From: a virus
Virus record (IMG/VR): IMGVR_UViG_3300019884_000007
Coordinates: 1 to 35,524 of that record
Length of the DNA: 35,524 nucleotides
Strand: one strand, 5' to 3'
Positions within the stretch are counted from its first letter, which is position 1, and every line of letters begins with the position of its first letter. The notes below the pieces were generated by a model. It was not told the DNA's origin. It ran no database searches and worked only from the letters and a program-made list of their open reading frames with translations. Shown here one piece after another: positions 1,879 through 35,524 of this stretch. The position numbers were made by a program, and so were the translations under genes.

Positions 1879-1970
1879 AAGTATGTCAGTTTCTTTGTTT
1901 TAATTCAACTTTACATATTTTTTTTATTTTATTCTCTCTAATTTAAAACTTTAAATAAATGGGAGGGCTT

Positions 1971-4340
1971 ATGCCTAAATTCGCAAGACCTACAAGTTAT
2001 ACCGGTAAACAGGGCAGTCAACAGTGGACGGGGGATATTAGATTCGCTAATTCTGTAGAAGCTGCTGCTGGGGTAGATCCTCAACTCGCAATCAGTCCTG
2101 CAACATTAGCAAGCGCAGTTGGGACTTTAGTTCCTTCAGCAAGTTCAACTGTTGAGGGTGTCGTTTTCCTTACTGAGGGAACTTCTTCTATAGCTTATCC
2201 AGTTGCAACTAAATTCTATGCAGATAACTTAGCAATTGCTGGTGCTCCTGCTTGGTCTGAAACCGTTTCAGGTATTGGACAACTAGCAACTACAGCAGAG
2301 GCGATTGCTGGTACTGATGATAATACAGCAATTACTCCTCTAAAACTTGCCCAAGTAATCGCTGCTGGTGGGCCAGCTTCTTTTACCAACGTTACAATTT
2401 CTGGAACATTGGATGTTACAGGTCTTACCACTCTTAATGGAAGTGCAACAATTTTGACTGGGGCTACAGCTCTAAACCTAGCTTCAGATGCTTCTACTGG
2501 GGCAGTAAATATAGGTACAGGTGCAGGGGCGAGAACGATTACAATTGGTAACTCGACAGGTGCCACAGCAATTTCTCTTAACGTGGGAACTGGCGCTCTT
2601 AACCTTGGAACTAACGCAGTAGCTCACACAGTGACGATTGGTAACGTCACAGGTGCTACAGCAGTTAATATAAATGCTGGTTCTGGCGGATCTACTTGGA
2701 TCACAACTAACTCAACTCTAGCTCTGCTTTCAGGAACAGGTGCAACAAATATCGGGACAGATGCAGCAGCTAAAACAATCACTATCGGTAACTCAACAGG
2801 AGCAACAAGTGTTGTTATCAACGCAGGTACAGGTGCTCTGAATATCGGTACTAACTTAGTTGCTCATTCAATCACTATCGGTAATGCGACAGGTGCTACA
2901 GCAATTGTCTTAACAGTTGGAACAGGTAACTTTGTTCTAGATGGGGTTGCAGGATCTACTTATTCAATAGGTGCCTCTACGACTACAGGTACAATAACTA
3001 TTGGTGGAACTGCTCAAACAGGAACAATGACTCTAGGTAGCTCTTCAGGTATCAACATTGTGAATGTGGGTACTGGGGAAGGTGCGACAACTGTTAATAT
3101 TGCAACAGGAGCAACATCAGCAAAAGTAGTACATATTGCAGATGGAGCAGTTGCTAACTTAGTTACCATAGGTTCAACTACTGGTGCAGCAGCTCTTACA
3201 CTAAAAGCAGGTACAGGAAATTTCTCATTAGACGGGGCTGCTACAACTGTCTATACTTTTGCCCCTTCAACTACTTCTGGAACAATAAATTTCGGAGGTA
3301 CAGGAGCAAATACAGGTACAATGACAATTGCTGGTGGTACTGGGGCACAGACGATCAACATTGCTAATTCAACTGGTGGTAAAACTGTTGCAATAGCCGC
3401 AGGTGCAGGTGCTAACCTTGTTTCTCTGGGTTCAGCTACAGGCGCATCAAGCCTTACTCTTCGTGCTGGTACAGGAAATTTCTCATTAGACGGGGCTGCT
3501 GCAACAGTTTATGCAGTGGGACTTTCTACTACTACAGGGACAATTACAATAGGTGGTACCGCACAAACTGGTACTATGACTCTAGGCTCATCTTCTGGAA
3601 TTAATATTGTTAATTTAGGAACAGGTGAAGGTGCTACCACTGTTAATATAGCTACTGGGGCAACAAGTGCTAAAGTGGTTAATATTGCTACAGGGGCGGT
3701 TGCTAATCTCGTTACTATCGGTTCCGCGAGTGGAGCAGCTTCTTTATCTCTCTTAGCAGGTACAGGTAACTTTAGTTTAGATGGAGCTGCAACAACCAAC
3801 TATACTTTTGGTCCTGCTACAACATCAGGTACCTTTAACATTGGTGGTACTGGGGCAAATACTGGTACTGCAACAATATTTGGTGGAACAGGTGTTCAGG
3901 CCATTAACTTCGCAGCAAACACAGGTGTAAAAACTGTGAATATAGCCACAGGAGCCGCGGCTAACGTTGTGACAGTGGGTACTGAAACAGGTGCAGCTTC
4001 ACTGGCTCTTAAAGCAGGTTCAGGTGGGGTGAACGTATCGGGTAACTTAAGTCTTGTAAACGTAGCGACTCAGATCCGATTGAATGGGGGAGCAGTTACA
4101 GACTTCATTGGTCAAGGTACTCTAGTTGGGGGTACAGTAACAATTGCTAACACCAATATTGCAGCAACAGATCGTATCTTTGTTTCAAGATCAGCTCTTA
4201 ATGCCTCACCTGCTCTAGGTTTCTTGATAAGTACTATCAGTGCTGGTGCTTCCTTCACTGTAGCCTCATTTAGTGCAGCGGGTGCAGCAGTAGCTACAGA
4301 TGTTTCTAGCTTTGACTACATTATTTTTAGACAAACCTAG
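1971..4340 (+). CDS. Large repetitive tail-fibre protein, about 789 aa
   Basis: The start is placed at the ATG preceded by GGGAGGG; an in-frame ATG twelve bases upstream lies before that ribosome site. After a non-repetitive head of about 150 residues the protein consists of Gly/Thr/Ala/Ile-rich repeats around the motif TIGNxTGAT, present about eight times, alternating with two near-identical STTTGTITIGG blocks. This is a beta-rich repeat like a trimeric fibre shaft. A distinct 80-residue C-terminal domain, with LSLVNVATQIRLNGG and a beta-rich tail, could be the receptor-binding or trimerising tip. It opens the fibre module and is followed by a strong hairpin. Calling it an adhesin or fibre is safe by position; the receptor is unknown. 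Confidence 0.75.
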   Translation: MPKFARPTSYTGKQGSQQWTGDIRFANSVEAAAGVDPQLAISPATLASAVGTLVPSASSTVEGVVFLTEGTSSIAYPVATKFYADNLAIAGAPAWSETVSGIGQLATTAEAIAGTDDNTAITPLKLAQVIAAGGPASFTNVTISGTLDVTGLTTLNGSATILTGATALNLASDASTGAVNIGTGAGARTITIGNSTGATAISLNVGTGALNLGTNAVAHTVTIGNVTGATAVNINAGSGGSTWITTNSTLALLSGTGATNIGTDAAAKTITIGNSTGATSVVINAGTGALNIGTNLVAHSITIGNATGATAIVLTVGTGNFVLDGVAGSTYSIGASTTTGTITIGGTAQTGTMTLGSSSGINIVNVGTGEGATTVNIATGATSAKVVHIADGAVANLVTIGSTTGAAALTLKAGTGNFSLDGAATTVYTFAPSTTSGTINFGGTGANTGTMTIAGGTGAQTINIANSTGGKTVAIAAGAGANLVSLGSATGASSLTLRAGTGNFSLDGAAATVYAVGLSTTTGTITIGGTAQTGTMTLGSSSGINIVNLGTGEGATTVNIATGATSAKVVNIATGAVANLVTIGSASGAASLSLLAGTGNFSLDGAATTNYTFGPATTSGTFNIGGTGANTGTATIFGGTGVQAINFAANTGVKTVNIATGAAANVVTVGTETGAASLALKAGSGGVNVSGNLSLVNVATQIRLNGGAVTDFIGQGTLVGGTVTIANTNIAATDRIFVSRSALNASPALGFLISTISAGASFTVASFSAAGAAVATDVSSFDYIIFRQT

Positions 4341-4345
4341 TAAAA

Positions 4346-4390
4346 AATTTAAGATATGGTTAAAGTCAAATTTTAACCATATCTTAAATT
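4346..4390 (+). terminator. Perfect 19-bp stem hairpin after the repetitive fibre gene
   Basis: Two 19-base arms are exact reverse complements, separated by a 7-base loop, starting six bases after the fibre stop codon. There is no clean U-tract after the stem; GGAG of the next gene follows directly. It may be an RNA-stabilising or processing stem or a leaky terminator that steps down expression after the fibre gene. Confidence 0.6.
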
Positions 4391-4402
4391 GGAGATCGAA
4401 TA

Positions 4403-4603
4403 GTGAAACAGATACCAGCACAAAAGTTTGTTAGTGATTGTGGAAGAGCTTCTTTTATTGTTGAAAATGAAATGCCAGTGGGTTTTATCCATGACTATTT
4501 ATTACAACTAAAGGGTCATATGGTAGATATCATGATAGCAGCACATAAACAGGAAAAGGAACAAGCAGAAGCACAGAAAAAGTCCGAAAGCGCGCCAGAA
4601 TAA
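4403..4603 (+). CDS. Small protein between fibre genes, 66 aa
   Basis: GTG start with GGAG eight bases upstream. The N-terminal half (KFVSDCGRASF) looks beta-rich, and the C-terminal half is a charged helix rich in Lys, Glu and Gln that ends in SAPE. I do not recognise a family. Its place directly after the fibre gene and between two long hairpins makes a fibre-assembly chaperone or small virion component plausible, but that is inference from position only. Confidence 0.5.
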   Translation: MKQIPAQKFVSDCGRASFIVENEMPVGFIHDYLLQLKGHMVDIMIAAHKQEKEQAEAQKKSESAPE

Positions 4604-4609
4604 TAAGCG

Positions 4610-4641
4610 GGTCATGTTGAGCCTCCATTCTCAACATGACC
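4610..4641 (+). terminator. Perfect 12-bp stem hairpin, second in the fibre module
   Basis: GGTCATGTTGAG and its exact reverse complement are separated by eight bases, just after the stop of the 66-residue gene. No run of T follows, so a classical intrinsic terminator is doubtful. A second small stem (GTGTT/AACAC, 4663-4679) lies just before the next ribosome site. The arrangement suggests mRNA processing or stabilisation between fibre genes. Confidence 0.55.
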
Positions 4642-4690
4642 ATAATATGAGCATAAATCACAGTGTTAGCTCTCAACACAAGGAAAAAAT

Positions 4691-5032
4691 ATGGGTCGCA
4701 TTCTCCCTATTGAATTGAAAGAATTTGTCGCCTCTACTCTCAATGGAACAGATCAAAATTTTGGTACTCCTCTAGAAAATCCAGCAATAAAAATTTGTGT
4801 TATAAATACTTCAGATGTTGATTGCTATTTGGATTGTGATTCAGTTGTTGATTTACACATGCGTATTCCTGCTGGGGCATGTATAACATTAGATGAATCG
4901 ACACTCTATTTTAGAGGTATAGACCAGGAGTATTACCTTGTTAGAGGTGCACAATTGACTCTAACACAAGTAACGGCTGCTGGAACTTCAGGTAATATCA
5001 TTGCTCATATAGTCACGAGGGATTTACCATGA
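4691..5032 (+). CDS. Structural protein of the fibre module, 113 aa, function unknown
   Basis: Preceded by AAGGAAAAAAT and overlapping the next gene by four bases (ATGA), so translation of the two is probably coupled. The composition is beta-rich with short polar loops and no charged tail, like a small jelly-roll or sandwich domain. Three cysteines (CVINTSDVDCYLDC) lie close together. I do not recognise a family. Its place between fibre proteins suggests a tail or fibre accessory domain. Confidence 0.55.
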   Translation: MGRILPIELKEFVASTLNGTDQNFGTPLENPAIKICVINTSDVDCYLDCDSVVDLHMRIPAGACITLDESTLYFRGIDQEYYLVRGAQLTLTQVTAAGTSGNIIAHIVTRDLP

Positions 5033-5586
5033 GTAATGCTTATCTTTTAACAACTACTGTTGCTCCTCCTCCTGCTGTTCCTACTAGTTTTGAGACACAA
5101 AATGGCACAGCAGTTCCTGCTGCAAATATTTTGATTATCAATGGATTTGATTCCACAGAAAACAATGATAATGGGATAATCTCAAAGGGCGGCGTAGTAG
5201 GTACAGGAACGGCTAACGAAGTCGATATAGTTATCACTAATCGATTCACAGGACAAGTTACCACAGCAGATGCGACGGTTACACCTATTATTACAATCCC
5301 TTTAGCCGTTTCAGGAACTACCTATTCTTTTTCTGGAATAGTAACAGTAAGAGTTCCTGCAACAGGAGATGGTGCAAGTTATGGTTTTTCATCTGCTGTA
5401 AAAACGAACGGAGTGGCAGCTACCGAAATAGGCACTGAATATCCAACTACTTTTGAAGATATATCTTTACTTTTAGCTGACATAAGTTTTGTAGCTAGTG
5501 CAAATAATACAATTTTAAATGTTATTGGAGTCGCTGCTACGACGATCAATTGGGACGCATACGTAACCTATAGGCAGGTGTCATAA
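5029..5586 (+). CDS. Beta-rich tail/fibre protein, 185 aa
   Basis: Starts in the ATGA overlap with the previous gene and shares TAATG with the next one. A proline-rich N-terminal linker (VAPPPAVPTSFE) is followed by a compact Thr/Val/Ala/Gly-rich beta domain of about 150 residues with no catalytic motif. Such proteins are common as fibre or decoration subunits. The tight coupling on both sides suggests a fixed stoichiometry with its neighbours. No specific family assigned. Confidence 0.55.
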   Translation: MSNAYLLTTTVAPPPAVPTSFETQNGTAVPAANILIINGFDSTENNDNGIISKGGVVGTGTANEVDIVITNRFTGQVTTADATVTPIITIPLAVSGTTYSFSGIVTVRVPATGDGASYGFSSAVKTNGVAATEIGTEYPTTFEDISLLLADISFVASANNTILNVIGVAATTINWDAYVTYRQVS

Positions 5587-6704
5587 TGGGATCTAGCTCA
5601 GTAACAGGCGACGAAGTCATACTTTTTTCTGACAACATGTCATTCGACGGGACTGCTCGAGGTGGTAAAATGACTACAAATGGCCAATTATGGATTGGTC
5701 ATACGACTTCAGACCGTCCAAATAATGGGGGTCATGTTAAAGTTGGATCGTTAACGTCACCTAATAGTAGTATAACTTTTGGTTATTCTTCTCCTAATAT
5801 CACCGCTGTAGTCAATACTTCTGTAGTAACTGATTTTCATGTCGCTAGATATATTGTAAGTGCTGGTGGGATAACTGATGGGGCAAATTATACGACAATT
5901 GCCACCGCTTATGCTGCCGCAGTAGCAGCAGGAGCTCCTCAAACTGTTTTTATTCAGCCAGGAACTTATACAGAGAATTTAACATTAGTTGCAGGAATTA
6001 ATTTATGTGCGTTTCCTTGCGACTCTTTTACTTTTAACGTCACCATTATAGGTAAAATAACTGCTACATATACGGGAACTTGCTCTATATCTGGTATAAG
6101 ACTTCAAACGAATGGCGACTATTGCGTTGAATCTACAGGTGCAAATGTTCTTACTCTCTTCCTAATTGGATGCTATATAAATGCTACTAACGCCAATGCT
6201 ATACATTGTACTAATGCTAATGCGGGAATAGAACTTTTCGGTTGTAGAGGTGCATGCAGCACAAATACATTCTTTATTTATACAGCTGGTGCACTTAATG
6301 TTTTTTATAGTGTTCTAGCAGGAACCAATACCACCACAAACTCAACATTTTCTGGTGGGGCTATTAATGTCAGTCATTCCTACATTTCATGTCCAATTAC
6401 GACTAGCGGAACTGGGGCAATAGGATTATTTAAATCTGAATTAATTTGTACAAATACCACAGCTTTAACACATGGTGGATCTGGAAATAGTATAGCGATG
6501 GAAACTCGTTTTGAATCAGGCACTGCAAGCGCAATATCAATTGGTGCTACTTTACCTGTAATACATTCCTCTGTTTTCAGCACAAATGCGAATGCCATTA
6601 CAGGTGCAGGGACATTGCTTTACGGAATCATAGTTTTTTATGGAAGTGGTGCATCATCTACAGTAAATACAGGCACACAAACTGCTCTTGCAACGCTAAT
6701 TTAA
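5586..6704 (+). CDS. Right-handed beta-helix tail spike-like protein, 372 aa
   Basis: The N-terminal 100 residues contain a GQLWIGHTTSDRPNNGG segment of the type used to attach spikes to tails. From about residue 105, DGANYTTIATAYAAA followed by VFIQPGTYTENL is the typical entry into a pectate-lyase-like parallel beta-helix, as in phage spikes. Short turns rich in Asn, Thr and Cys then continue to the end. No clear catalytic Asp/Glu pair can be assigned, so it may bind rather than cleave a surface glycan. The family is recognised from the entry motif and repeat rhythm. Confidence 0.7.
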   Translation: MGSSSVTGDEVILFSDNMSFDGTARGGKMTTNGQLWIGHTTSDRPNNGGHVKVGSLTSPNSSITFGYSSPNITAVVNTSVVTDFHVARYIVSAGGITDGANYTTIATAYAAAVAAGAPQTVFIQPGTYTENLTLVAGINLCAFPCDSFTFNVTIIGKITATYTGTCSISGIRLQTNGDYCVESTGANVLTLFLIGCYINATNANAIHCTNANAGIELFGCRGACSTNTFFIYTAGALNVFYSVLAGTNTTTNSTFSGGAINVSHSYISCPITTSGTGAIGLFKSELICTNTTALTHGGSGNSIAMETRFESGTASAISIGATLPVIHSSVFSTNANAITGAGTLLYGIIVFYGSGASSTVNTGTQTALATLI

Positions 6705-6712
6705 GGTGAATT

Positions 6713-8401
6713 ATGGTTTTAGGTTCTAATACCAGCGGGCATCTCTTCGATACTACGTTTACTACGAATGGCGTTGCTTATTCTGCTGCCAGTGGAGTTT
6801 TATCGAATACTATTGCTGGGACTACTGGTCAAATATTGATGGGAAATACGGGTTCAGCCCCTACATTTCAATCAGGCGGAACCTCAGTTGGTCAAACGAT
6901 AACAGGAGATACTGGAGGAGCTCTTAGTCCCACATCAGGAAATTGGAATTTACTTGGAACAGGTAGTATTACTAGTGTCGGATCGGGGAGTACTCTTACT
7001 ACACAACTAACAGGTTTAACTAATCATGCTCTTTTAGTAGGCGCTGGGAACGCGACAATAACAAAAGTGGGACCTACAGCAACAGCGGGTCAATATTTAC
7101 AATCCGCGGGTTCTTCAGCCGATCCTGTTTTTAGTACAGCAACATTGCCTTCAACTGCCACAGGAACAGGTAAAATTTTACGAGCTGATGGAACTAATTG
7201 GGTAGCAACTACAGCCACATATCCCGACACAGCTGGAACGTCTGGTAATGTTTTAACGAGCGATGGAACGAACTGGACTAGTGCGGTGCCTGCAACATCT
7301 GGAACTGTAACCAGTGTAAGCGGAACAGCAAACCAAGTTGCAGTAGCCAACGGAACAACAACTCCGGTTATATCCCTTATTGGACCCTATACACCTGCTA
7401 CTTATACTGCACACGGGGTTTTGGTAGGTGAAGGAACAAGTTCTATTGTAGCTTTAGCTACGGGTAGTACAGGGCAAGTTTTACAATCAGGTGGAGCAAG
7501 CGCTGACCCGGCTTATTCGACTGCAACTTATCCTTCTATTGCAACTGGAACCGGCACTATTTTACGAGCTGATGGAACCAACTGGATCGCAACTACAGCC
7601 ACTTACCCAGCTACTACTACTGTTTCTCAAGTACTTTATAGTAGTGCCACAAACGTTGTATCTGGTTTAGCGACGGCTAATAATGGTACATTAGTAACAA
7701 GTAATACCGGTGTTCCATCAATACTAGCTGGGCCAGGTACAACAGGTAATATTTTACAATCTAATGCTGCTGCTGCGCCAAGTTTCAGCACCACCACCTA
7801 TCCTAGCACTAATGCCATAAATACTTTGCTCTACGCTTCTTCTGCAAACGTCATGGCAGTTATAACAGCAGCCAATAATGGAACATTAATTACCAGTGCT
7901 ACAGGTGTTCCTTCTTGGTTAGCTAACGGAACTACTGGACAACTCTTAACAGCCACTACAGGATCTCCACCTTCGTGGGTTGCTCCTGCTGCTGCGAGTG
8001 GTTTAGTAACCATCACTGGTACCGTGACAAATGCTCAATTAAAAGCTATATCCACTCCCGTGGTACTTCTAGCAGCTCAAGGGGCAGGAACGGTTAGTAT
8101 TGTTGTAAGTTTTACCCTTAAATTTAATTATGGTGGTACAAACGCATTTACATTAGGAAACGAATTAATATTAGAATATTCCGTTACAGGAAGAGATATT
8201 ATAGCAAGTGCCATAAGCCAAGCCGAAATGCAAGGTACCGTTAGTTTATATGCATTGAATAACTTTACTGCTACTCGTAGTAATATAACAGATTATGAAA
8301 ATACAGGAATACAAATAAGAGCTACTGCTAATTTCACGGGTAATGCGGCGAACAACAACACTGTTACATGGTCTATGACATACAAAGTAATCAGTATTTA
8401 A
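6713..8401 (+). CDS. Second repetitive tail-fibre protein, 562 aa
   Basis: Good ribosome site (AAGGTGA). Repeated elements include GTTGQxLxS (at least four copies), ILRADGTNW followed by ATTATYP (two copies) and NNGTLVTSxTGVPS (two copies). These describe a Gly/Thr/Ala/Ser-rich beta shaft, as in many phage fibres. The last 130 residues, beginning near GLVTITGTVTNAQLKAI, are non-repetitive and form a separate beta domain that is a good candidate for the receptor-binding tip. It closes the fibre module. Unlike the first fibre, its repeats remain rather similar at the DNA level. Confidence 0.7.
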   Translation: MVLGSNTSGHLFDTTFTTNGVAYSAASGVLSNTIAGTTGQILMGNTGSAPTFQSGGTSVGQTITGDTGGALSPTSGNWNLLGTGSITSVGSGSTLTTQLTGLTNHALLVGAGNATITKVGPTATAGQYLQSAGSSADPVFSTATLPSTATGTGKILRADGTNWVATTATYPDTAGTSGNVLTSDGTNWTSAVPATSGTVTSVSGTANQVAVANGTTTPVISLIGPYTPATYTAHGVLVGEGTSSIVALATGSTGQVLQSGGASADPAYSTATYPSIATGTGTILRADGTNWIATTATYPATTTVSQVLYSSATNVVSGLATANNGTLVTSNTGVPSILAGPGTTGNILQSNAAAAPSFSTTTYPSTNAINTLLYASSANVMAVITAANNGTLITSATGVPSWLANGTTGQLLTATTGSPPSWVAPAAASGLVTITGTVTNAQLKAISTPVVLLAAQGAGTVSIVVSFTLKFNYGGTNAFTLGNELILEYSVTGRDIIASAISQAEMQGTVSLYALNNFTATRSNITDYENTGIQIRATANFTGNAANNNTVTWSMTYKVISI

Positions 8402-14003: not shown

Positions 14004-14270
14004 ATGGGAATATACTATTTCGCTGTAGATTATTCTGAAAAGAAACAAATGTGGTCACCAAAAAACTGGTCTGACAAGTGTATCTATTTTCCTAATCATC
14101 CTTTGCCTTCAATGATTGTAATGAAAAATTGTCAGGGGCACAATTTTGAGGTTGTTAATGATGTATCAACCTATGAAGAACATGGATTTGAGGATGTAAC
14201 AGAACAGGTTTATCAAGAGTTTAAGGATAGATTTCCCGATTTCGATTGGAAAGAGTATGAATCCGAATGA
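14004..14270 (+). CDS. Small acidic protein, 88 aa, unknown
   Basis: Weak ribosome site (GAGAGAAT). The product starts MGIYYFAVDYSEKKQMW and is rich in aromatic residues, with an acidic C-terminal helix (VYQEFKDRFPDFDWKEYESE). No family recognised. It is the last gene before a 250-base gap containing several hairpins. Confidence 0.5.
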   Translation: MGIYYFAVDYSEKKQMWSPKNWSDKCIYFPNHPLPSMIVMKNCQGHNFEVVNDVSTYEEHGFEDVTEQVYQEFKDRFPDFDWKEYESE

Positions 14271-16220: not shown

Positions 16221-16489
16221 CCTACGAAAAACTCCTCAACATTGCATTAGCCTTTAGACCTATACTATGTGCCTTAGCACTTCTGCTCGTCATTTGCCAA
16301 TGTTGTTCGGAAAAGTGCGGTGCTTTTTGGCCTTCCGAAATCGTTCCACATGTCGAACCAATCGAAATACGCACCTACAACGATGAAATAAAAGACATAA
16401 CCGACAAAATCATCGAAAGACAACGCAAAGAGAATGAGCGTATACAAAATAACGAAAAACAACGTGATGATAGGAACAAAAAAAGATGA
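16217..16489 (+). CDS. Inner-membrane spanin-like protein, 90 aa
   Basis: Starts in an ATGA overlap with the HNH gene. An N-terminal membrane segment (PILCALALLLVICQC) is followed by a long charged helix rich in Glu, Lys, Arg and Asn, ending in DDRNKKR. This N-in, single-helix plus periplasmic coiled coil layout is that of i-spanins such as Rz. A small lipoprotein gene lies 400 bases downstream. There is no sequence-family evidence, so spanin is an inference from architecture. Confidence 0.45.
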   Translation: MTYEKLLNIALAFRPILCALALLLVICQCCSEKCGAFWPSEIVPHVEPIEIRTYNDEIKDITDKIIERQRKENERIQNNEKQRDDRNKKR

Positions 16490-16902
16490 TAGAAAAATTT
16501 AACTTTGAATTTTTGATTCCAGGTAGAAGAAAGTTGGCTGAAAAAATCAATGAAATTATTAATGTTTTGAGTACTTTTGTTCGTAATAATAATGATTTTA
16601 TTGATAGAACTATAGAAGACATTGATTCACTAGGAGAAAGCATTCAACAACTTGAAGATAAAGCCATTCTTAAACCCGATTACGAACCAGAAGATGTCGC
16701 TCTGCGCTGCATAGCAGAAAAAGGAACTTTCGAATGGGCGCTGATTCAGATGAAGAAAGGCAAGAAAGTTAAAAGAAAAATAAATGATCACGAAATAAGA
16801 ATCGAAGGCATGCACTTTGTTTCAAACTTCATTGGCGAATTTTATAGCATTTCTTGCGAAGCTTTGCTAGGGACTGATTGGGAGACTGTAAATGATAATT
16901 AG
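16486..16902 (+). CDS. 138-aa protein with DUF2829/Tad2-like C-terminus
   Basis: Residues 1-70 are helical and coiled-coil-like (KINEIINVLSTFVRNNNDFI). Residues about 80-135 read TFEWALIQMKKGKKVKRK, then a beta segment, then LLGTDWETV. The DUF2829 family begins with an ALxxLKxGKKVxRxxW-type motif and ends with LAxDWEVV. Some DUF2829 members (Tad2) sequester the signalling nucleotide of Thoeris defence. Here the middle of the domain is shortened, so binding ability is uncertain. It starts in an ATGA overlap with the previous gene. Confidence 0.45.
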   Translation: MIEKFNFEFLIPGRRKLAEKINEIINVLSTFVRNNNDFIDRTIEDIDSLGESIQQLEDKAILKPDYEPEDVALRCIAEKGTFEWALIQMKKGKKVKRKINDHEIRIEGMHFVSNFIGEFYSISCEALLGTDWETVNDN

Positions 16903-18286: not shown

Positions 18287-18356
18287 TGGCAAGACCTGGC
18301 GGGGTCCGGCGAGGCTGGGTCGGCTTTGGTACGGTCCGGTGAGCTTTGGTATGGTG
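18287..18356 (+). repeat. GC-rich degenerate period-5 repeat, 14 units
   Basis: A G recurs at every fifth base for 14 consecutive units (18288, 18293 and so on to 18353); the next base is also G in 11 of them, giving an NGGNN pattern. Base composition is sharply more GC-rich than the surroundings. It lies between the stop of the 201-residue gene and a terminator, thus in the 3' end of that mRNA. Confidence 0.75.
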
Positions 18357-18385
18357 GCCCCTAGACAATTAGGGGCCTTTTCTTT
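18356..18385 (+). terminator. Intrinsic terminator of the 201-residue gene
   Basis: GGCCCCTA and TAGGGGCC form an 8-bp stem with a 6-base loop (GACAAT), followed by TTTTCTTT. This is a textbook rho-independent terminator. Confidence 0.85.
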
Positions 18386-18737: not shown

Positions 18738-18766
18738 TCTACATATTAAATCTTAAATTTTATAAT
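18738..18766 (+). promoter_or_regulatory. Predicted promoter of the collagen-like gene
   Basis: TCTACA (four of six -35 bases), 17 bases, then a perfect TATAAT at 18761-18766. The ribosome site TAGGTGA precedes the ATG at 18815. The -10 is strong and the -35 moderate. Confidence 0.5.
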
Positions 18767-18814
18767 GTTCGATCGCCTTAGTCGGCAAAAAAATCAAAAA
18801 AATTAGGTGATCAA

Positions 18815-19522
18815 ATGTGTAAAGAAGATATGAAAGATTATCATTGGGAACATAAAAAGTGCTGCGGTTGTCAAGAAGGCCCTGTAGGTCCAGCAGGCGA
18901 ACAAGGTCAGCAAGGTATTCAAGGCGTCCCAGGCGCACAAGGCGCTATGGGCCCAGCGGGTGCACAAGGCCCACGAGGTCTACAAGGAGCCCCTGGAAAA
19001 GATTGCGAACCTTGCCATGATCGCGAATGCAAATGCTGTGAATGCTATGCAAACGTATGGGCGCAACCTCCTCAAATCCTAGGTGCTTTCGGAGCGGCAA
19101 ATGATGCTGTTCTCTTCCAGTTCCAAAACGCAGTAAGTGCAGGGGATTTTGATCTTTCAATGATGAGCATTGACGGATCAGTGAAATTCCTAAAATCAGG
19201 AATTTACTATATTAACTATGGCGCAGAAGCAAAAGTTTCCCAGCCTATTCCCGTTCCAGTTCCTTCATTTAGTTTTGGTCTATGGAAGCAAAATGTGCTC
19301 GTTCCTGGATCAACATTGTCAGGATATACACAAGCCCCCGGGGATGACACTTTGCATATCAGCGGTGAAGTACAAATCCATGTCAATGCAGGTGATGTGT
19401 TGAAGTTGCGCAATGCTTCTTCAAACAGCGTAGATATGACACCTAACACAGTAGGCATCCTCTTCCCAGTAACAGTCGCTTCTCTTTGCATTCATGCACT
19501 ACATTGTGATGTAGTAGCCTAA
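18815..19522 (+). CDS. Collagen-like protein with cysteine-rich flanks and a jelly-roll head, 235 aa
   Basis: Residues 22-63 are fourteen Gly-X-Y triplets (GPVGPAGEQGQQGIQGVPG and on), a trimer-forming collagen helix. Cysteines lie on both sides: C16, C17, C19 before, and C64, C67, C72, C74, C75, C77 after, suited to disulfide or metal bridging. Residues about 85-230 are a beta-rich domain with GSVKFLKSGIYYINYGAEAKV and HISGEVQIHVNAGDVLKLRN, the layout of C1q/TNF or BclA C-terminal domains. A surface or virion-attached adhesin is likely. The gene has its own promoter and terminator and lies away from the fibre module, so it looks like cargo. Confidence 0.7.
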   Translation: MCKEDMKDYHWEHKKCCGCQEGPVGPAGEQGQQGIQGVPGAQGAMGPAGAQGPRGLQGAPGKDCEPCHDRECKCCECYANVWAQPPQILGAFGAANDAVLFQFQNAVSAGDFDLSMMSIDGSVKFLKSGIYYINYGAEAKVSQPIPVPVPSFSFGLWKQNVLVPGSTLSGYTQAPGDDTLHISGEVQIHVNAGDVLKLRNASSNSVDMTPNTVGILFPVTVASLCIHALHCDVVA

Positions 19523-19532
19523 CTTAACGGTT

Positions 19533-19552
19533 GGCGGTCACCCTAAACCGCC
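19533..19552. terminator. Hairpin between convergent genes
   Basis: GGCGGT and ACCGCC with an eight-base loop lie between the collagen-like gene and the convergent leftward cluster. T-runs are poor on both sides, so efficiency is unclear; it may serve both directions. Confidence 0.5.
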
Positions 19553-26592: not shown

Positions 26593-27537
26593 ATGGCTGG
26601 ATCAGTCACAACAACCAACCAATATGGCTCAATGGCCGATAGATGGGCACACCGTGCGCTTCTTCAAAGGTCAAAGCCAAGAAACGTTCACAACCTTTTT
26701 GGTAGAGCGTTTAGTTTGCCCCAGAAAAATACCGATACGATCGCTTTCAGAAGACAAGAGAACTTGAATTCCGATCCAGTCGTTATTCCTCAAGATGCCG
26801 ATCCTGCTCCTGAGCAAGTACTAAAATTTGATATCAACGTAACTGTACAAGAATTTGGTAAAGTTGTGTTGTTATCAAGAAAAGTTATCTTAGTTGTAGA
26901 GGACGATACTGCCTCTGAAACTGCTGATAACCTTTCACAGTGCATGCACACTATGCTAGATAAGGTAACACGTGATGTATGGGACTCTTCCGTACCACAA
27001 ATTTCTTGTCTAAACGGGGTTAATGGTAATGCTATAACAGAGCTTACCCAAATCGACGTAAACCGTGCTATTCAGTACTTAGATGACGGTGATACTGAGA
27101 AGATGACTCCTACTATCGAAGGTACCTCACGTTTTGGTACGGGCCCTGTAGAAGCTGGTTTTTGGGTTACAGCACACGTAAATTTGAAACCAGATATTCG
27201 CTCCTTAGACTCCTTTGTACCTACTTCTCAATATGGTTCACAAGAGCCTGTGTTGCAAGCAGAGTATGGAGCAACTGATGAAGCAAGATGGGTTACTTCT
27301 ACTCTTGTTAAATTCTCCAATGCTAACCCGCCTGTGTATAACAACACATTTGTTGGTGCTAATGCTTATGGTTATGTAGGCATAGACGAGGTTTCGACTG
27401 AGATGATCCTAAAACCACTTGGTTTCAATGATTATCTAAATCGTTTCCAATCAATGGGTTTCACAGCATGGTTTAACTCAGCCATCTTGGATGATTCCCA
27501 TATCGTAACCTTACTTTCAACCAAAGCAGCAGCTTAA
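26593..27537 (+). CDS. Major capsid protein, N4-gp56-like, 314 aa
   Basis: N-terminal TTTNQYGSMADRWAHRALL and PRNVHNLFGRAFSLPQKNTD, then TIAFRRQENL and KFDINVTVQEFGKVVLLS, are the signature of the N4-gp56-type HK97-fold capsids. A central TARGET-like block (MTPTIEGTSRFGTGPVEAGF) and VLQAEYGATDEARWV follow. Length is in the usual range of the family. Gene order scaffold-capsid and a well-formed ribosome site fit high expression. Confidence 0.85.
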   Translation: MAGSVTTTNQYGSMADRWAHRALLQRSKPRNVHNLFGRAFSLPQKNTDTIAFRRQENLNSDPVVIPQDADPAPEQVLKFDINVTVQEFGKVVLLSRKVILVVEDDTASETADNLSQCMHTMLDKVTRDVWDSSVPQISCLNGVNGNAITELTQIDVNRAIQYLDDGDTEKMTPTIEGTSRFGTGPVEAGFWVTAHVNLKPDIRSLDSFVPTSQYGSQEPVLQAEYGATDEARWVTSTLVKFSNANPPVYNNTFVGANAYGYVGIDEVSTEMILKPLGFNDYLNRFQSMGFTAWFNSAILDDSHIVTLLSTKAAA

Positions 27538-27547
27538 GGAGTAAATC

Positions 27548-28315
27548 ATGTCTGACTTACATTGGGGACAAACTATGACCGAAGCCTACAGATTCATTTC
27601 TGCTGGGACGGCTCATACCTTCGCATTTAATTTCCCACCTGACAAAGTGGTTTTCAACAACCTTACTAAATGGACTGCTACTGCTGGTGGCGATCCTGTT
27701 TCGGTATGGTTTAGAGATCAAACAACTACAGCTCATGCCTTCCAGCAGACTGTAATTGATTCCTCCGCTGGAGCTTCTTTTAACTTTAAAGATGCAACAA
27801 CTAACGGCTTTACAGTAGCTAATACAGCCGGCGGAGCACCTGCTTATAGAGCACTTATTTCAGGTGTGACACAAGCAGATCCTTGCGTCATCACAACAGT
27901 TGCAGATCATGGCTATCAAACAAATCAAATCGTGAGAATTACTGATTTGGGCGATGTTGGCGTAACTGATAGAGGTATGGGTCAACTGAACAATAACCGT
28001 TATGGGATCATTGTTCTTTCTGATACTACTTTCTCTATTTATGATGTGACAACAGGTGAGCCAATTGATTCTACAAGCTATACAGCGTGGGTAGCTGGTG
28101 GAAGAGTGGATTTGGAATCGAGAGTTATTTCGTTGAATAACCCTCAGCAGTTCCCTTATTTGGTAACTCCTTATGTTCCAACTCCATTTGTCTATAATCC
28201 TATTACTTATCAACTGACAGCAGGCACCGATGTTATGCAGTCTGATGGGGATGAATTCCTTATCGAAGTTTATAAGTGGGGAGCTGTTTACGACCTAGGT
28301 GATTTAGTAACCTAA
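27548..28315 (+). CDS. Head-associated protein with FCCH-like beta domain, 255 aa
   Basis: Residues 104-187 carry SGVTQADPCVITTVADHGYQ, then GQLNNNRYGIIVLSDTTFSI and YDVTTGEPIDSTSY, a beta-sheet module that in phages is often annotated as like the FCCH domain of E1 enzymes. The same module recurs in the next gene and in the tail nozzle protein. The N-terminal 100 residues (HWGQTMTEAYRFISAGTAHTF) may be the virion-binding part. A decoration or joining protein is likely. Ribosome site AAGGAG. Confidence 0.6.
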   Translation: MSDLHWGQTMTEAYRFISAGTAHTFAFNFPPDKVVFNNLTKWTATAGGDPVSVWFRDQTTTAHAFQQTVIDSSAGASFNFKDATTNGFTVANTAGGAPAYRALISGVTQADPCVITTVADHGYQTNQIVRITDLGDVGVTDRGMGQLNNNRYGIIVLSDTTFSIYDVTTGEPIDSTSYTAWVAGGRVDLESRVISLNNPQQFPYLVTPYVPTPFVYNPITYQLTAGTDVMQSDGDEFLIEVYKWGAVYDLGDLVT

Positions 28316-30145: not shown

Positions 30146-30811
30146 ATGGTCTGGACTTCTTTATCCCCTGATGGGACGAAATCAGTACGTTTTAACACGC
30201 CCCAAATGCTTGGTAATACGGAATATACTGAAACTACAATGAATCTGGACCATTATTGGAATGCTGATGCAGATCTTGATGGACATCATAAATTTGCTCA
30301 GATGACTCAGGTTGGAAGTGCAGCTTCTCCTGCTGATCCTGTAATTCAGGCTGGGATCGATTTAGTTTATTATTGCAGAACGAAAACCACAACTGAATCT
30401 CCTTCACATCAAGACGTGCAACCTTTTACTGTCTCAGACATCACAAATCCTCAAGTGATGCAATTGTTGGGTATAAGGGCAATGGGTGTTTTTTCTGTCT
30501 CTGGAGCAGGAGCTATCACTTTAAATTATACTCATAACTTAACAAGTGTGAGTAGACTTCCTTTAGCGACAACAGGACAATTCAGGGCTAATTTTGCTAA
30601 CGCATTACCTTCTGTAAATTATTTAATATTGGGCGGGGCGATTAGTAATGTTAATGATGTAAATTCTTTATTAGATTTTAACGTTTGTGGAGCTACTGCT
30701 CTTGCTACGGTAAAAAGCGCTTCGTCTTTTAGATTTCAAACAAGAACTACTGGCGGAAACCCAACTTTAGCTGATCCATTACAATGTTGGTTTGTGGTAT
30801 TTGGAGGATAA
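30146..30811 (+). CDS. Beta-rich virion protein, 221 aa
   Basis: Ribosome site AAGGAG; stop overlaps the next ATG (TAATG). Begins MVWTSLSPDGTKSVRFNTPQ and carries DHYWNADADLDGHHKFAQM, a segment seen in virion proteins whose N-terminus repeats NxDxHW-like motifs. The last 100 residues are Thr/Ala/Ser-rich strands. It may be a decoration, tail or fibre-attachment protein. Confidence 0.5.
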   Translation: MVWTSLSPDGTKSVRFNTPQMLGNTEYTETTMNLDHYWNADADLDGHHKFAQMTQVGSAASPADPVIQAGIDLVYYCRTKTTTESPSHQDVQPFTVSDITNPQVMQLLGIRAMGVFSVSGAGAITLNYTHNLTSVSRLPLATTGQFRANFANALPSVNYLILGGAISNVNDVNSLLDFNVCGATALATVKSASSFRFQTRTTGGNPTLADPLQCWFVVFGG

Positions 30812-32715
30812 TGGCCGTTTACGAAATCACAGGTACGCATACGGGAGTTTCTAAGGAGGGAGTTAATTTTCTCCAACCTGCTGACTCATACCAAAATATG
30901 TACAATGGTTTTATTTATAGACAGGTCCTACAATCGCGTTTTGGTTTTACTCAGTTCTCTCTAAGACGTGTCTCTGACAATATAGTGACGGACAATACCC
31001 GTATCATGGGTATTTTTGAAAATGTATTGACTAGTGGAGTGAATAACATAAGAGAAACTCTAGTAGTCACGAAGAAATTTCTTTATAGATACAATGATAC
31101 CACTAATGTTTTCGATCGAATTCCAATGGCAGGATCAGCTCCCGCTGGGGGTTTTAATATCATCTCCAATAATGAATATGTATCAGGTACAACATATCCT
31201 TTTAAAGACGGTACAAACCGTTTCCTCTTTACTGGGAAGGGAATGACAGATGTTTATAGTTATAATGGGACAAATGTTCAAAGTTTCACCTTGGACAATC
31301 CTGACTATGCTGATCCTATAGAAGGGGCGTTAACAAATGCTTGGTATATCATTTGGTTTGGAGAGAGGTTAAATTTATTTTATCCTACTATTGCAGGCCA
31401 AACTTATCCTCAGGCTGTACTCTATTCGGGAATTCGCGACACTTTAGGCAATGGGGACAAATTCAATGTCCCTGGGGCGGGTTTACTTTCCGCTGATACC
31501 TATGAGTATCTTAATGGGGCATGTGTCCTTGGTAATGTCATCATTGCAAATTTCTCTCAATCAAATTGGACATTAGAAAAGACTAGAGATGCCTTTAATC
31601 CCTATTTTTGGAGAAAAATCCCCTCTGTATTGGGTACAGATGCTTCTTTTTCTTTTCAGGAATGGAATGACGAGGTGCGTTCTTTGGGACGTACAGGAAT
31701 CATTAGAACGGATAATCGAGTCTCTCTTAGAATAGACAACAAGATTCCTTTCTTTACGGCAGATGAAATAGATCAAGAATTGTTTGATCTTACTTATGGT
31801 GGTTTTGATCCTATTAGAGGGCAGTTTCTCTTTTCCTATCTTGATAAAAATTCAGACGAGAGCCTTACTCAAGATAAGGTATTAGTAAACAATTACGAAG
31901 AAACGACATGGGCTATTAATGATCAAAGATTTAGCGTTTTTGGTAATTCAACAAATGGAATCAATTTTGTGATGAATGATATCTATGAGGTTAATAATCC
32001 CTCATGGATAGCTATGGATTCTACAGAAGAGATTTGGAATCGGATAGGAATAGGTAAAGAGACTCAGAAAACTCTTGCGGGAGACGATGATGGATTTGTT
32101 TATGAGTTAAATCAAGATTTTGATGATTATTTTGCCACTATCAGTGCTATCACAAATGCTCCTCAAGCTGTATTGACGGTGGCCGATTCTGCTTTTAAAG
32201 CTGGCGACAGAGTGACAATTAGCAATGTTGAGGGGATGACTGAGATAAACAACTTTGATCCTCTAAATCCTTACGCTCCTTTTACACCTTACACCGTGGT
32301 CTCAGCTACAAATACAAGCATTACAATAGATAAAGATTCCTCTGATTTTGGGATATACACACCCGATACAGGCTCTATAACGAAAGTTATTAGCTTTTAC
32401 GCACAAACAATCCCATTCAATCCTTTTCGTTCTCAGGGACTTAAATGTCGCATTTCCCATGTTGAGTTTCTTTTGGACTGTAATGCAGGCTTTTTAGAAG
32501 TCGATGTGTTTGAAGACGAAGAAAGCACCCCTTTCAAATCCAATATTCTTGTTATACCTGATTCAGATAGAAAGGGGCGCCAATGGGTTGAGATGAGTAT
32601 CAATAATGAAGCTAACTTCATGACCTTTGCTTTGAAGCAGGAATCACCTGCATTGCAGGTGCGTTTAACAAGTATGCGTATCCATTGTGAGCCAGGAGCA
32701 TATACAAGTGCCTAA
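30811..32715 (+). CDS. Tail nozzle / DNA-stabilisation protein, P22 gp10-like, 634 aa
   Basis: Start at the ATG in TAATG with TTGGAGG upstream. The long beta-rich body contains ADTYEYLNGACVLGNVIIAN, SQSNWTLEKTRDAFNPYFW and NDEVRSLGRTGIIRTDNRV, characteristic of the tail-hub/nozzle beta-propeller proteins that plug short tails. Around residue 443-530 an FCCH-like module is inserted (TNAPQAVLTVADSAFKAGDR). Position before ejection proteins fits a P22 gp10 role. The next gene starts within its last eight bases. Confidence 0.65.
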   Translation: MAVYEITGTHTGVSKEGVNFLQPADSYQNMYNGFIYRQVLQSRFGFTQFSLRRVSDNIVTDNTRIMGIFENVLTSGVNNIRETLVVTKKFLYRYNDTTNVFDRIPMAGSAPAGGFNIISNNEYVSGTTYPFKDGTNRFLFTGKGMTDVYSYNGTNVQSFTLDNPDYADPIEGALTNAWYIIWFGERLNLFYPTIAGQTYPQAVLYSGIRDTLGNGDKFNVPGAGLLSADTYEYLNGACVLGNVIIANFSQSNWTLEKTRDAFNPYFWRKIPSVLGTDASFSFQEWNDEVRSLGRTGIIRTDNRVSLRIDNKIPFFTADEIDQELFDLTYGGFDPIRGQFLFSYLDKNSDESLTQDKVLVNNYEETTWAINDQRFSVFGNSTNGINFVMNDIYEVNNPSWIAMDSTEEIWNRIGIGKETQKTLAGDDDGFVYELNQDFDDYFATISAITNAPQAVLTVADSAFKAGDRVTISNVEGMTEINNFDPLNPYAPFTPYTVVSATNTSITIDKDSSDFGIYTPDTGSITKVISFYAQTIPFNPFRSQGLKCRISHVEFLLDCNAGFLEVDVFEDEESTPFKSNILVIPDSDRKGRQWVEMSINNEANFMTFALKQESPALQVRLTSMRIHCEPGAYTSA

Positions 32716-34773: not shown

Positions 34774-35524
34774 ATGAATGGTTTCGATTTTTCAGCTTAT
34801 GATTTCTCAGATTATGCTTCTCCTTTGGTAGATGAAGAAGAAGGAGATAAAAGTGGTTTTGACTTCGATAAATATGATTTAACTGCCATACCCAAAGAAA
34901 AAAACACGCCTACGCCTTCTTATAAAAATCCTTTTGAAGTAAGAGAAGTTTCAAAAGATGAATACAATAAGATGTCGCAGTCTGAAAAAATTCAATATGC
35001 TAAAAATTTAGACAAGGAACAGAGATTTGATTTTTCAAAAGGTTTGTCAAAATCTCTTGGATCATCTCTAAGTTTTGGGGCCACAGAAAATATTCTAGGA
35101 TTTGAGCCTGAAGAAAGTGATAACCCTTATGGATCGTTTTTAGGAAATGTAGTAGGTAATGTTTTGCCTATTGCAGGGGCAGCTAAAGTAGCCTCTATTC
35201 CTGTAAAAGCAGCTTTTAAGAATGCTCCTAAAATTTTGCAACCCCTACAAAATCTTATGCAAGCTTTTGGTACAGGGGCGGTTTATGAAACTGGCAAACA
35301 AGGCGTTAATGTAGCTTCGGGAAAAGAGGCAGATTTGTCCCAAATACCAATTACTGGGGGTGAATTTGCAACTTTAGATTTAATTTTTAGGGGATTAGGA
35401 AAAGCAGCACAGAAAACATATTCAAAATTTAAGGAATTTTCTCCTTCTCAGCAGGCTCAGATTTTGGAACAAAAAGTTGTTCCTAAAGATCTTCCAAAAA
35501 GCCAATTTGATACTGCTCAGGAAA
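34774..35524 (+). CDS. Large DNA-ejection protein, N-terminal part (continues at base 1)
   Basis: Starts two bases after the previous stop. The N-terminus contains a repeated aromatic motif, GFDFSAYDFSDY and GFDFDKYDL, with an acidic linker. Residues about 125-165 (GSFLGNVVGNVLPIAGAAKV) are Gly/Ala-rich and membrane-active in look. The frame stays open to the last base and continues at the left end, giving 737 residues in total. Comparable with the largest P22-type ejection protein; no lysozyme or transglycosylase motif is visible. Confidence 0.7.
   Translation, partial: MNGFDFSAYDFSDYASPLVDEEEGDKSGFDFDKYDLTAIPKEKNTPTPSYKNPFEVREVSKDEYNKMSQSEKIQYAKNLDKEQRFDFSKGLSKSLGSSLSFGATENILGFEPEESDNPYGSFLGNVVGNVLPIAGAAKVASIPVKAAFKNAPKILQPLQNLMQAFGTGAVYETGKQGVNVASGKEADLSQIPITGGEFATLDLIFRGLGKAAQKTYSKFKEFSPSQQAQILEQKVVPKDLPKSQFDTAQE
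35389..35524. repeat. Right copy of the terminal overlap
   Basis: Repeats bases 1-136 with three differences in the first ten positions. Reading this copy, the protein at the join is RGLGKAAQ; the left copy reads RVLRKAAQ. Confidence 0.9.

Follow-up and report, generated by a model that had tools for sequence, protein, structure and literature searches.

The window analysed here, a stretch of viral DNA of 35,524 nucleotides, contains a gene (18815–19522, plus strand) for a short protein that joins a collagen-like stalk to a C1q-type head. The locus raises the question of what such a protein does for a phage: whether it is a part of the virion, a product acting in the infected cell or an adhesin on the host surface. 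The original prediction had left two of these options side by side, a host-surface adhesin expressed during infection and a virion appendage. The last ~135 bases of the window (about 35390–35524) repeat the first ~135 (1–135), with translated ends that are identical except for the first residues, and the gene starting at 34774 continues across the join to 1599. This terminal overlap identifies the window as a complete phage genome, circularly permuted and ~35.4 kb long. The genome encodes a P22-type portal, a terminase and a capsid protein (gene at 26593–27537), together with large fibre-like genes at 1959–8401 and, on the minus strand, genes for YqaJ/RecT recombination; a DUF1064 gene immediately precedes the collagen gene. 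No tyrosine or serine integrase and no ParA were found in the complete genome, and the window has no tRNA or Rfam matches.

Layout of the collagen-like protein and predicted fold of its head

The open reading frame encodes 235 residues. It is preceded by a Shine-Dalgarno-like AGGTG (18805–18809, plus strand) located 5 nt upstream of the ATG, and a motif of this kind is present in 13 of 14 carriers. The protein starts with a short N-terminal peptide, MCKEDMKDYHWEHKKCCGCQE (18815–18877), with cysteines at positions 2, 16, 17 and 19; its MC start is invariant, and the CC/CxC cluster is found in nearly all homologues. The collagen-like stalk follows (18878–19003). As originally predicted, it has exactly 14 Gly-X-Y triplets, which run uninterrupted through residues 22–63; the homologues have 13–26. 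The Pfam Collagen family (PF01391) matches the protein over its cut-off (32.9 bits vs. 27.2, E 5.4e-8). A chance run is ruled out, since shuffling the residues of all window ORFs 200 times gave no run longer than 6 triplets. Matches to the NCBIfam Scl/Lcl families are far below the cut-off and span the collagen repeats alone, and this identity was set aside. The Y positions of the triplets are mostly Gln or Pro (Gln accounts for 54%), and the usual Thr sites for O-glycosylation are missing.

A Cys-rich linker (19004–19045) with cysteines 64, 67, 72, 74, 75 and 77 connects the stalk to the head. The cysteine right after the last triplet is invariant and the rest is variable, with a mean linker identity of 30% among the homologues. 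The counts given in the original prediction, three cysteines before the helix (16, 17, 19) and six after it, are correct, and the protein has further cysteines at position 2 and near the C-terminus (225 and 231). Cysteine makes up 5.1% of the window protein, compared with a mean of 1.1% for the window ORFs of at least 100 residues. No signal peptide, lipobox, cell-wall sorting signal or membrane anchor was found in the window protein. Its N-terminus of 21 residues shows no exosporium leader-like motif by eye and no recognisable virion-docking motif.

Profile matches and the predicted structure assign the C-terminal 158 residues (78–235; 19046–19519) to a BclA_C-like head with a C1q/TNF-type fold. 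The AF2 model of the head alone is a C1q/TNF-type jelly roll with a pLDDT of 83. In the full-length single-chain model the jelly roll has a pLDDT of mostly 70–90 and the stalk has low confidence, as expected because a single collagen chain was modelled. Structural comparison of the head model using VIA-align gave the C-terminal domains of F-BclA (9h38; Z 18.5, 1.8 Å over 132 residues) and BclA (1wck; Z 17.1), and both BxpB (Z 15.7) and the animal C1q/TNF heads (Z 13.7–15.6) scored below these two. The window head matches Pfam BclA_C (PF18573) below the cut-off, at 18.4 bits against a gathering cut-off of 38 (E 2e-3). The first four heads scanned without collagen all match this family weakly and under the cut-off (best E 1e-4), and the head profile has weak matches in the PDB to the exosporium proteins BxpB and ExsF (E 0.02–0.09). 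The model thus agrees with the C1q/BclA-like jelly-roll head that had been proposed. In the viral structure library, the fold of the head was found in many uncultured Caudovirales and in collagen proteins of giant viruses. The C1q-type domain itself is not new in viruses, and many phage proteins have a C1q fold.

A collagen stalk followed by a C-terminal TNF/C1q jelly-roll head is also the layout of BclA, F-BclA and L-BclA of the Bacillus cereus group, which form the exosporium nap and the tip fibrilla of endospore appendages. BclA, which lacks an export signal, is assembled around the spore from within the cytoplasm of the mother cell; the phage protein likewise has no export signal. It differs from BclA in its low identity (15–17%, below the Pfam cut-off), in being encoded by a phage, with no exosporium leader seen, in the cysteines that flank the stalk at either end, and in triplets that are rich in Gln rather than Thr/Ser. 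BclA_C and C1q heads trimerise and register the collagen helix, and the chains of collagen III are locked by a cystine knot. From sequence and model, the phage protein would most naturally be read as a trimer, with a collagen stalk and a head of the BclA/C1q trimer type. A CC motif lies in the Cys-rich N-terminal connector of the L-BclA-type tip fibrilla (PMC11952670), and the window protein has one in its Cys-rich N-terminus as well. In contrast to the collagen region of F-BclA of ~700 residues (PMC11952670), its stalk has 14 triplets. The cysteines at both stalk ends resemble the locks of collagens and of CC-motif spore-appendage tips (PMC11952670). The proposed covalent or metal-based lock of the trimer fits the conservation of these flanking cysteines, but we infer both its existence and its chemistry.

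Distribution, position and expression signals of the gene

Two scans of IMG/VR found 15 contigs, from uncultured phages of the environment, encoding a protein of equal architecture. The complete homologues share the MC(K/D/N) start, the Cys cluster, the stalk, a cysteine at or directly after the helix end and the head, and most have further linker cysteines. Among 14 homologues, C2 and C64 are invariant and C17 and C19 nearly so. The dN/dS of the head is 0.06–0.21, and in most pairs the synonymous sites are close to saturated. This strong purifying selection, together with the near-saturated synonymous sites, indicates that the sharing of the gene is old and functional. None of the 14 homologues has a hydrophobic N-terminal stretch (the highest 15-residue Kyte-Doolittle mean is 0.51) or an export signal. 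Bacterial genomes, where the same gene had been suggested as a check, gave no homologue of the collagen-stalked protein in a GTDB scan with exact head patterns of 7–8 residues, which distant cellular homologues may escape. Searches with the full protein found no homologue in plasmids and, at E 1e-5, none in phage isolates. The nearest head in an isolate, a weak match, is that of gp52 (phrog_30509, E 1e-5; tblastn E 0.9) of Synechococcus phage S-CBS2, a siphovirus of cyanobacteria. This protein of 372 residues, annotated as collagen or collagen-like minor tail, adjoins a 'head decoration protein' and an 'unknown structural protein'. Its C-terminal part resembles the window head weakly, with 25% identity over 62% of the head.

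In the window, as in G001, G002, G004, G005, G007 and G009, the gene is located where the early and packaging regions meet. It occupies the terL–portal gap in G010 and G011/G012 and, inverted, in G015, and it adjoins terS, also inverted, in G014. It has the same strand as its neighbours in two carriers with the terL–portal placement, and it lies opposite to the packaging genes in two relatives. The gene follows the fibre cluster in G003 and G013 and lies between fibre genes in G008. Thus, the predicted position outside the fibre module holds for the window but not for these three relatives.

Comparisons with 54 portal relatives (records mostly of 35–41 kb with a portal ~63–77% identical to that of one of two carriers) showed that the head is present in none of them, vs. 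16 of the 16 carriers in the control; no collagen protein of any kind was found in the 54. The portal and capsid proteins of the carriers are mostly only 20–30% identical to those of the window. The heads of the carriers are 62% identical on average, whereas the portals average 43% and fall to ~20%. Between the window and G001, the head is 76% identical, compared with 22% for the portal, 32% for TerL and 28% for the capsid protein. Between G002 and G010, the portal (77%) and the capsid protein (91%) are more similar than the head (55%). In AU tests, the head and portal trees reject each other's clades (p 2.5e-4, 1.7e-56 and 3.4e-6). The mismatch of head and portal identities and the mutual rejection of the trees indicate that the gene has been exchanged among distantly related phages. 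These comparisons give good support for a conserved accessory gene of unusual mobility that distantly related phages with a P22-type portal have exchanged, presumably in shared hosts. The gene is an optional, exchangeable accessory cassette, sporadic in its distribution and inserted at different genome positions. An empty insertion site is not definable because the early region of the relatives is wholly mosaic.

Modules of the collagen and C1q types are found repeatedly in animals, spores, giant viruses and phages, but the phage modules usually belong to large fibres or to receptor-binding proteins that are hypervariable. In the present case, a whole adhesin-like protein, short and with a well conserved head, moves as one unit among phages that otherwise share little. 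Phage collagen-like and C1q-headed proteins are already known; the Cys-clamped, free-standing and wandering form is a variation on them.

The idea that the gene has its own promoter and terminator appears to be at best half right. The promoter-like site TCTACA-17-TATAAT (18738–18766, plus strand; a 10/12 match) is only near chance level, with P ~0.05 for that stretch. It has no counterpart in the homologues, which show no enrichment, and with a combined P of 0.63 a conserved promoter was rejected. The region has 14 promoter-like sites vs. 12.2 ± 3.0 in shuffles. The terminator fared better: a hairpin, GGCGGT-CACCCTAA-ACCGCC (19533–19552, plus strand), lies 3' of the stop, although without a T-tract in the window. 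Most homologues have a hairpin directly 3' of the stop, usually with a T-tract. The gene and the late genes next to it point in one direction in 12 of the 14 carriers. In the window the collagen gene ends the early/middle block, and the next gene on the plus strand (21008) follows ~1.5 kb downstream. This location, and the strand opposite to the packaging genes in two relatives, leave late expression uncertain.

Two further features were seen near the gene. A G+T-rich, repeat-looking stretch of the window (...GGTCCGGTGAGCTTTGGTATGGTG..., 18300–18377) ends in a strong intrinsic terminator at 18356–18377 (GGCCCCTA...TAGGGGCC TTTTCTTT). In two carriers (L009 and L012), small ribbon-helix-helix/CopG-HicB-like genes with weak Pfam matches (L009:9525–9710, L012:9486–9692 and L012:10500–10697, all on the minus strand) adjoin the collagen gene on the opposite strand; these genes are possible local regulators.

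Proposed function of the protein and alternative readings

Since no homologue has an export signal, the protein should work in the cytoplasm, as part of the virion or once the cell has lysed. An adhesive head on a collagen stalk is easiest to understand as part of a particle, which argues for an accessory homotrimeric mini-fibre of the phage that would be built in the cytoplasm, locked by cysteines, and either decorate virions or be released at lysis. We give this reading a probability of about one half. Association with the virion is inferred, the appendage among the two original options is the best single guess, and any function assigned to the protein is an informed guess.

In such a mini-fibre, the head would nucleate the trimer and set the register of the collagen helix, as in BclA_C and C1q heads. 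The cysteines on either side of the stalk would be free or metal-bound in the reducing cytoplasm and oxidised after lysis, locking the three chains through disulfides at that stage or through metal bound earlier. The N-terminal cysteines may anchor the trimer on the virion surface or on a further late protein. Because there is no export signal, assembly would occur in the cytoplasm, like that of other virion fibres, with exit at lysis. The head might then bind a ligand common to the hosts or the surroundings of the carrier phages, so that the particle adheres better; particles or debris released at lysis would also adhere better through the head.

The conserved architecture of 14 homologues, the fold nearest to F-BclA and BclA, and the N-terminus without a hydrophobic stretch, as in other cytoplasm-assembled fibres, are consistent with a mini-fibre. 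Co-direction with the late strand in 12 of 14 carriers, the fibre-cluster location in three, the same-strand terL–portal location in two more, the terminator hairpin of most and the cassette behaviour (0/54 vs. 16/16, with discordant trees) point the same way, as does, weakly, the place of S-CBS2 gp52 among structural genes. SPP1 gp12, a trimeric capsid spike predicted to be collagen-like/coiled-coil, binds a known capsid site (PMC7602432), and the EHEC prophage side-tail fibres EPclA-D are phage-encoded trimeric collagen proteins (PMC3368898). Both are precedents for collagen in phage particles. Like gp12, the window protein is a short phage collagen-like protein outside the tail-fibre system; unlike gp12, for which no C1q head is mentioned (PMC7602432), it has one. 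It shares with EPclA-D a phage-encoded collagen, but the PfN/PfC domains that these have in common with lambda Stf were not found in it. If the mini-fibre is a virion part, inserting one gene at one of several places is enough to give a phage a functional surface appendage, and the protein would provide a compact, probably easily expressed Cys-locked collagen trimer for biochemistry.

Several observations weigh against a mini-fibre. The gene lies in the early/middle block in the window and on the opposite strand in two relatives, and the head is far more conserved than the known hypervariable phage C1q receptor-binding heads (PMC3909814). One short N-terminus without a docking motif, on capsids that share little, is odd for specific docking. 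This difficulty suggests either attachment through cysteines or a role off the virion. In the former case, the protein might be a transplantable, self-trimerising, Cys-locked BclA-like appendage that attaches to dissimilar capsids through the invariant Cys2 and the CC cluster, a proposal that we regard as doubtful. It would have no specific docking domain and may be likened to the CC-motif tip fibrilla capping spore appendages. If it is true, one insertion anywhere in a phage genome would equip the particle with a new adhesive head of the conserved type.

A role off the virion is possible, if somewhat unlikely. The gene would then be of the moron type, its product acting in or on the infected cell by accumulating in the cytoplasm or by coating debris or neighbouring cells at lysis, for example in receptor masking, particle trapping or metal sequestration through cysteines. 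The cassette distribution, the variable position and orientation, the own terminator and the lack of a single structural partner agree with such a gene, and so do a head that is conserved, not hypervariable, and Cys clusters that could bind metal. However, neither an export signal nor an integrase accompanies the gene, and a collagen stalk with a C1q-type head usually means multivalent adhesion on a particle or surface. If the protein is absent from the virion, it would represent a novel type of accessory protein that phages produce while infecting.

An ordinary receptor-binding tip of the tail-fibre apparatus, displaced from the fibre operon in the window genome, is an unlikely explanation. 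In G003, G008 and G013 the gene is part of the fibre cluster or follows it immediately, and C1q domains are recognised phage receptor-binding heads, often beside the tail fibre (PMC3909814, PMC7468147). C1q receptor-binding proteins from marine metaviromic islands (PMC3909814) and a cryoconite Mu-like phage (PMC7468147) are accessory or exchangeable, as is the C1q-headed protein described here. However, their heads are hypervariable and their N-termini better conserved (PMC3909814, PMC7468147), whereas in the protein described here the long, conserved part is the head, at 62% against the 43% of the portals with their minimum of ~20%. The gene wanders instead of varying in place, and close relatives of the carriers lack it altogether; it is missing from all 54 relatives whose portal is of the same kind. 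The window genome also has its own large fibre genes at 1959–8401.

We consider the host-surface adhesin of the original prediction, on an infected or lysogenic bacterium, very improbable. Collagen-like adhesins exist (Scl1/2, Lcl), and BclA is a spore surface protein. Unlike the secreted cell-wall collagen adhesins Scl and Lcl, the window protein has no hydrophobic segment or sorting motif, and its 14 homologues likewise have no hydrophobic N-terminus or export signal. A secreted adhesin or a lysogenic-conversion gene is unlikely because there is no signal peptide, lipobox or anchor and no recognised integrase in the complete genome; furthermore, no homologue was found in bacterial genomes by the pattern scan or in plasmids. 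Nothing observed points to the eukaryotic niche that the original prediction had suggested for the phage or its host, the C1q fold being common in phage proteins. A degenerate or low-complexity ORF without a product can be dismissed: Gly-X-Y repeats can arise in repetitive DNA, but this is refuted by the selection on the head (dN/dS 0.06–0.21 at near-saturated synonymous sites), the architecture conserved in 15 records and the SD-like motifs.

Host assignment and other genes of the window and its relatives

A scan of genome contigs with conserved portal blocks found four contigs of 18–40 kb (L207–L210), portal relatives binned with Patescibacteria, Nitrospiraceae, Pseudomonadota and Bacteroidales. 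No head homologue was found in the four genomes to which they belong. Host assignment failed; the contigs, assigned to four different phyla, are most simply phage contigs that were probably misbinned into GTDB genomes.

In the 16 carrier records no tyrosine integrase was found, and a serine recombinase was found in G010 only. ParA-type ATPases are encoded in the carrier G008 (G008:C1:2823–3230) and in L192 (7964–8617) and L198 (on the reverse strand of the locus), relatives without a tyrosine integrase. These genes suggest that some P22-portal phages may persist as plasmids.

A protein of 88 residues of no recognised family (MGIYYFAVDYS..., 14004–14270 of the window) is 71–74% identical in the carriers L006 and L012. 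It is encoded there elsewhere and on the other strand, and the portals of these carriers are only ~22% identical to that of the window. By these comparisons, the gene appears to be a second wandering small gene.

A protein of 138 residues (16486–16902) has a weak match, below the cut-off, to Tad2 (Thoeris anti-defence 2; E 4e-4). Pfam matches to E1_FCCH, a domain of the ubiquitin-activating enzyme, were seen in phage structural proteins encoded at 30784–32715 of the window, where the match is at the cut-off, and at 4947–5393 of L014. The latter protein resembles that encoded at 27548–28315 of the window, and its gene lies directly upstream of the L014 collagen gene.
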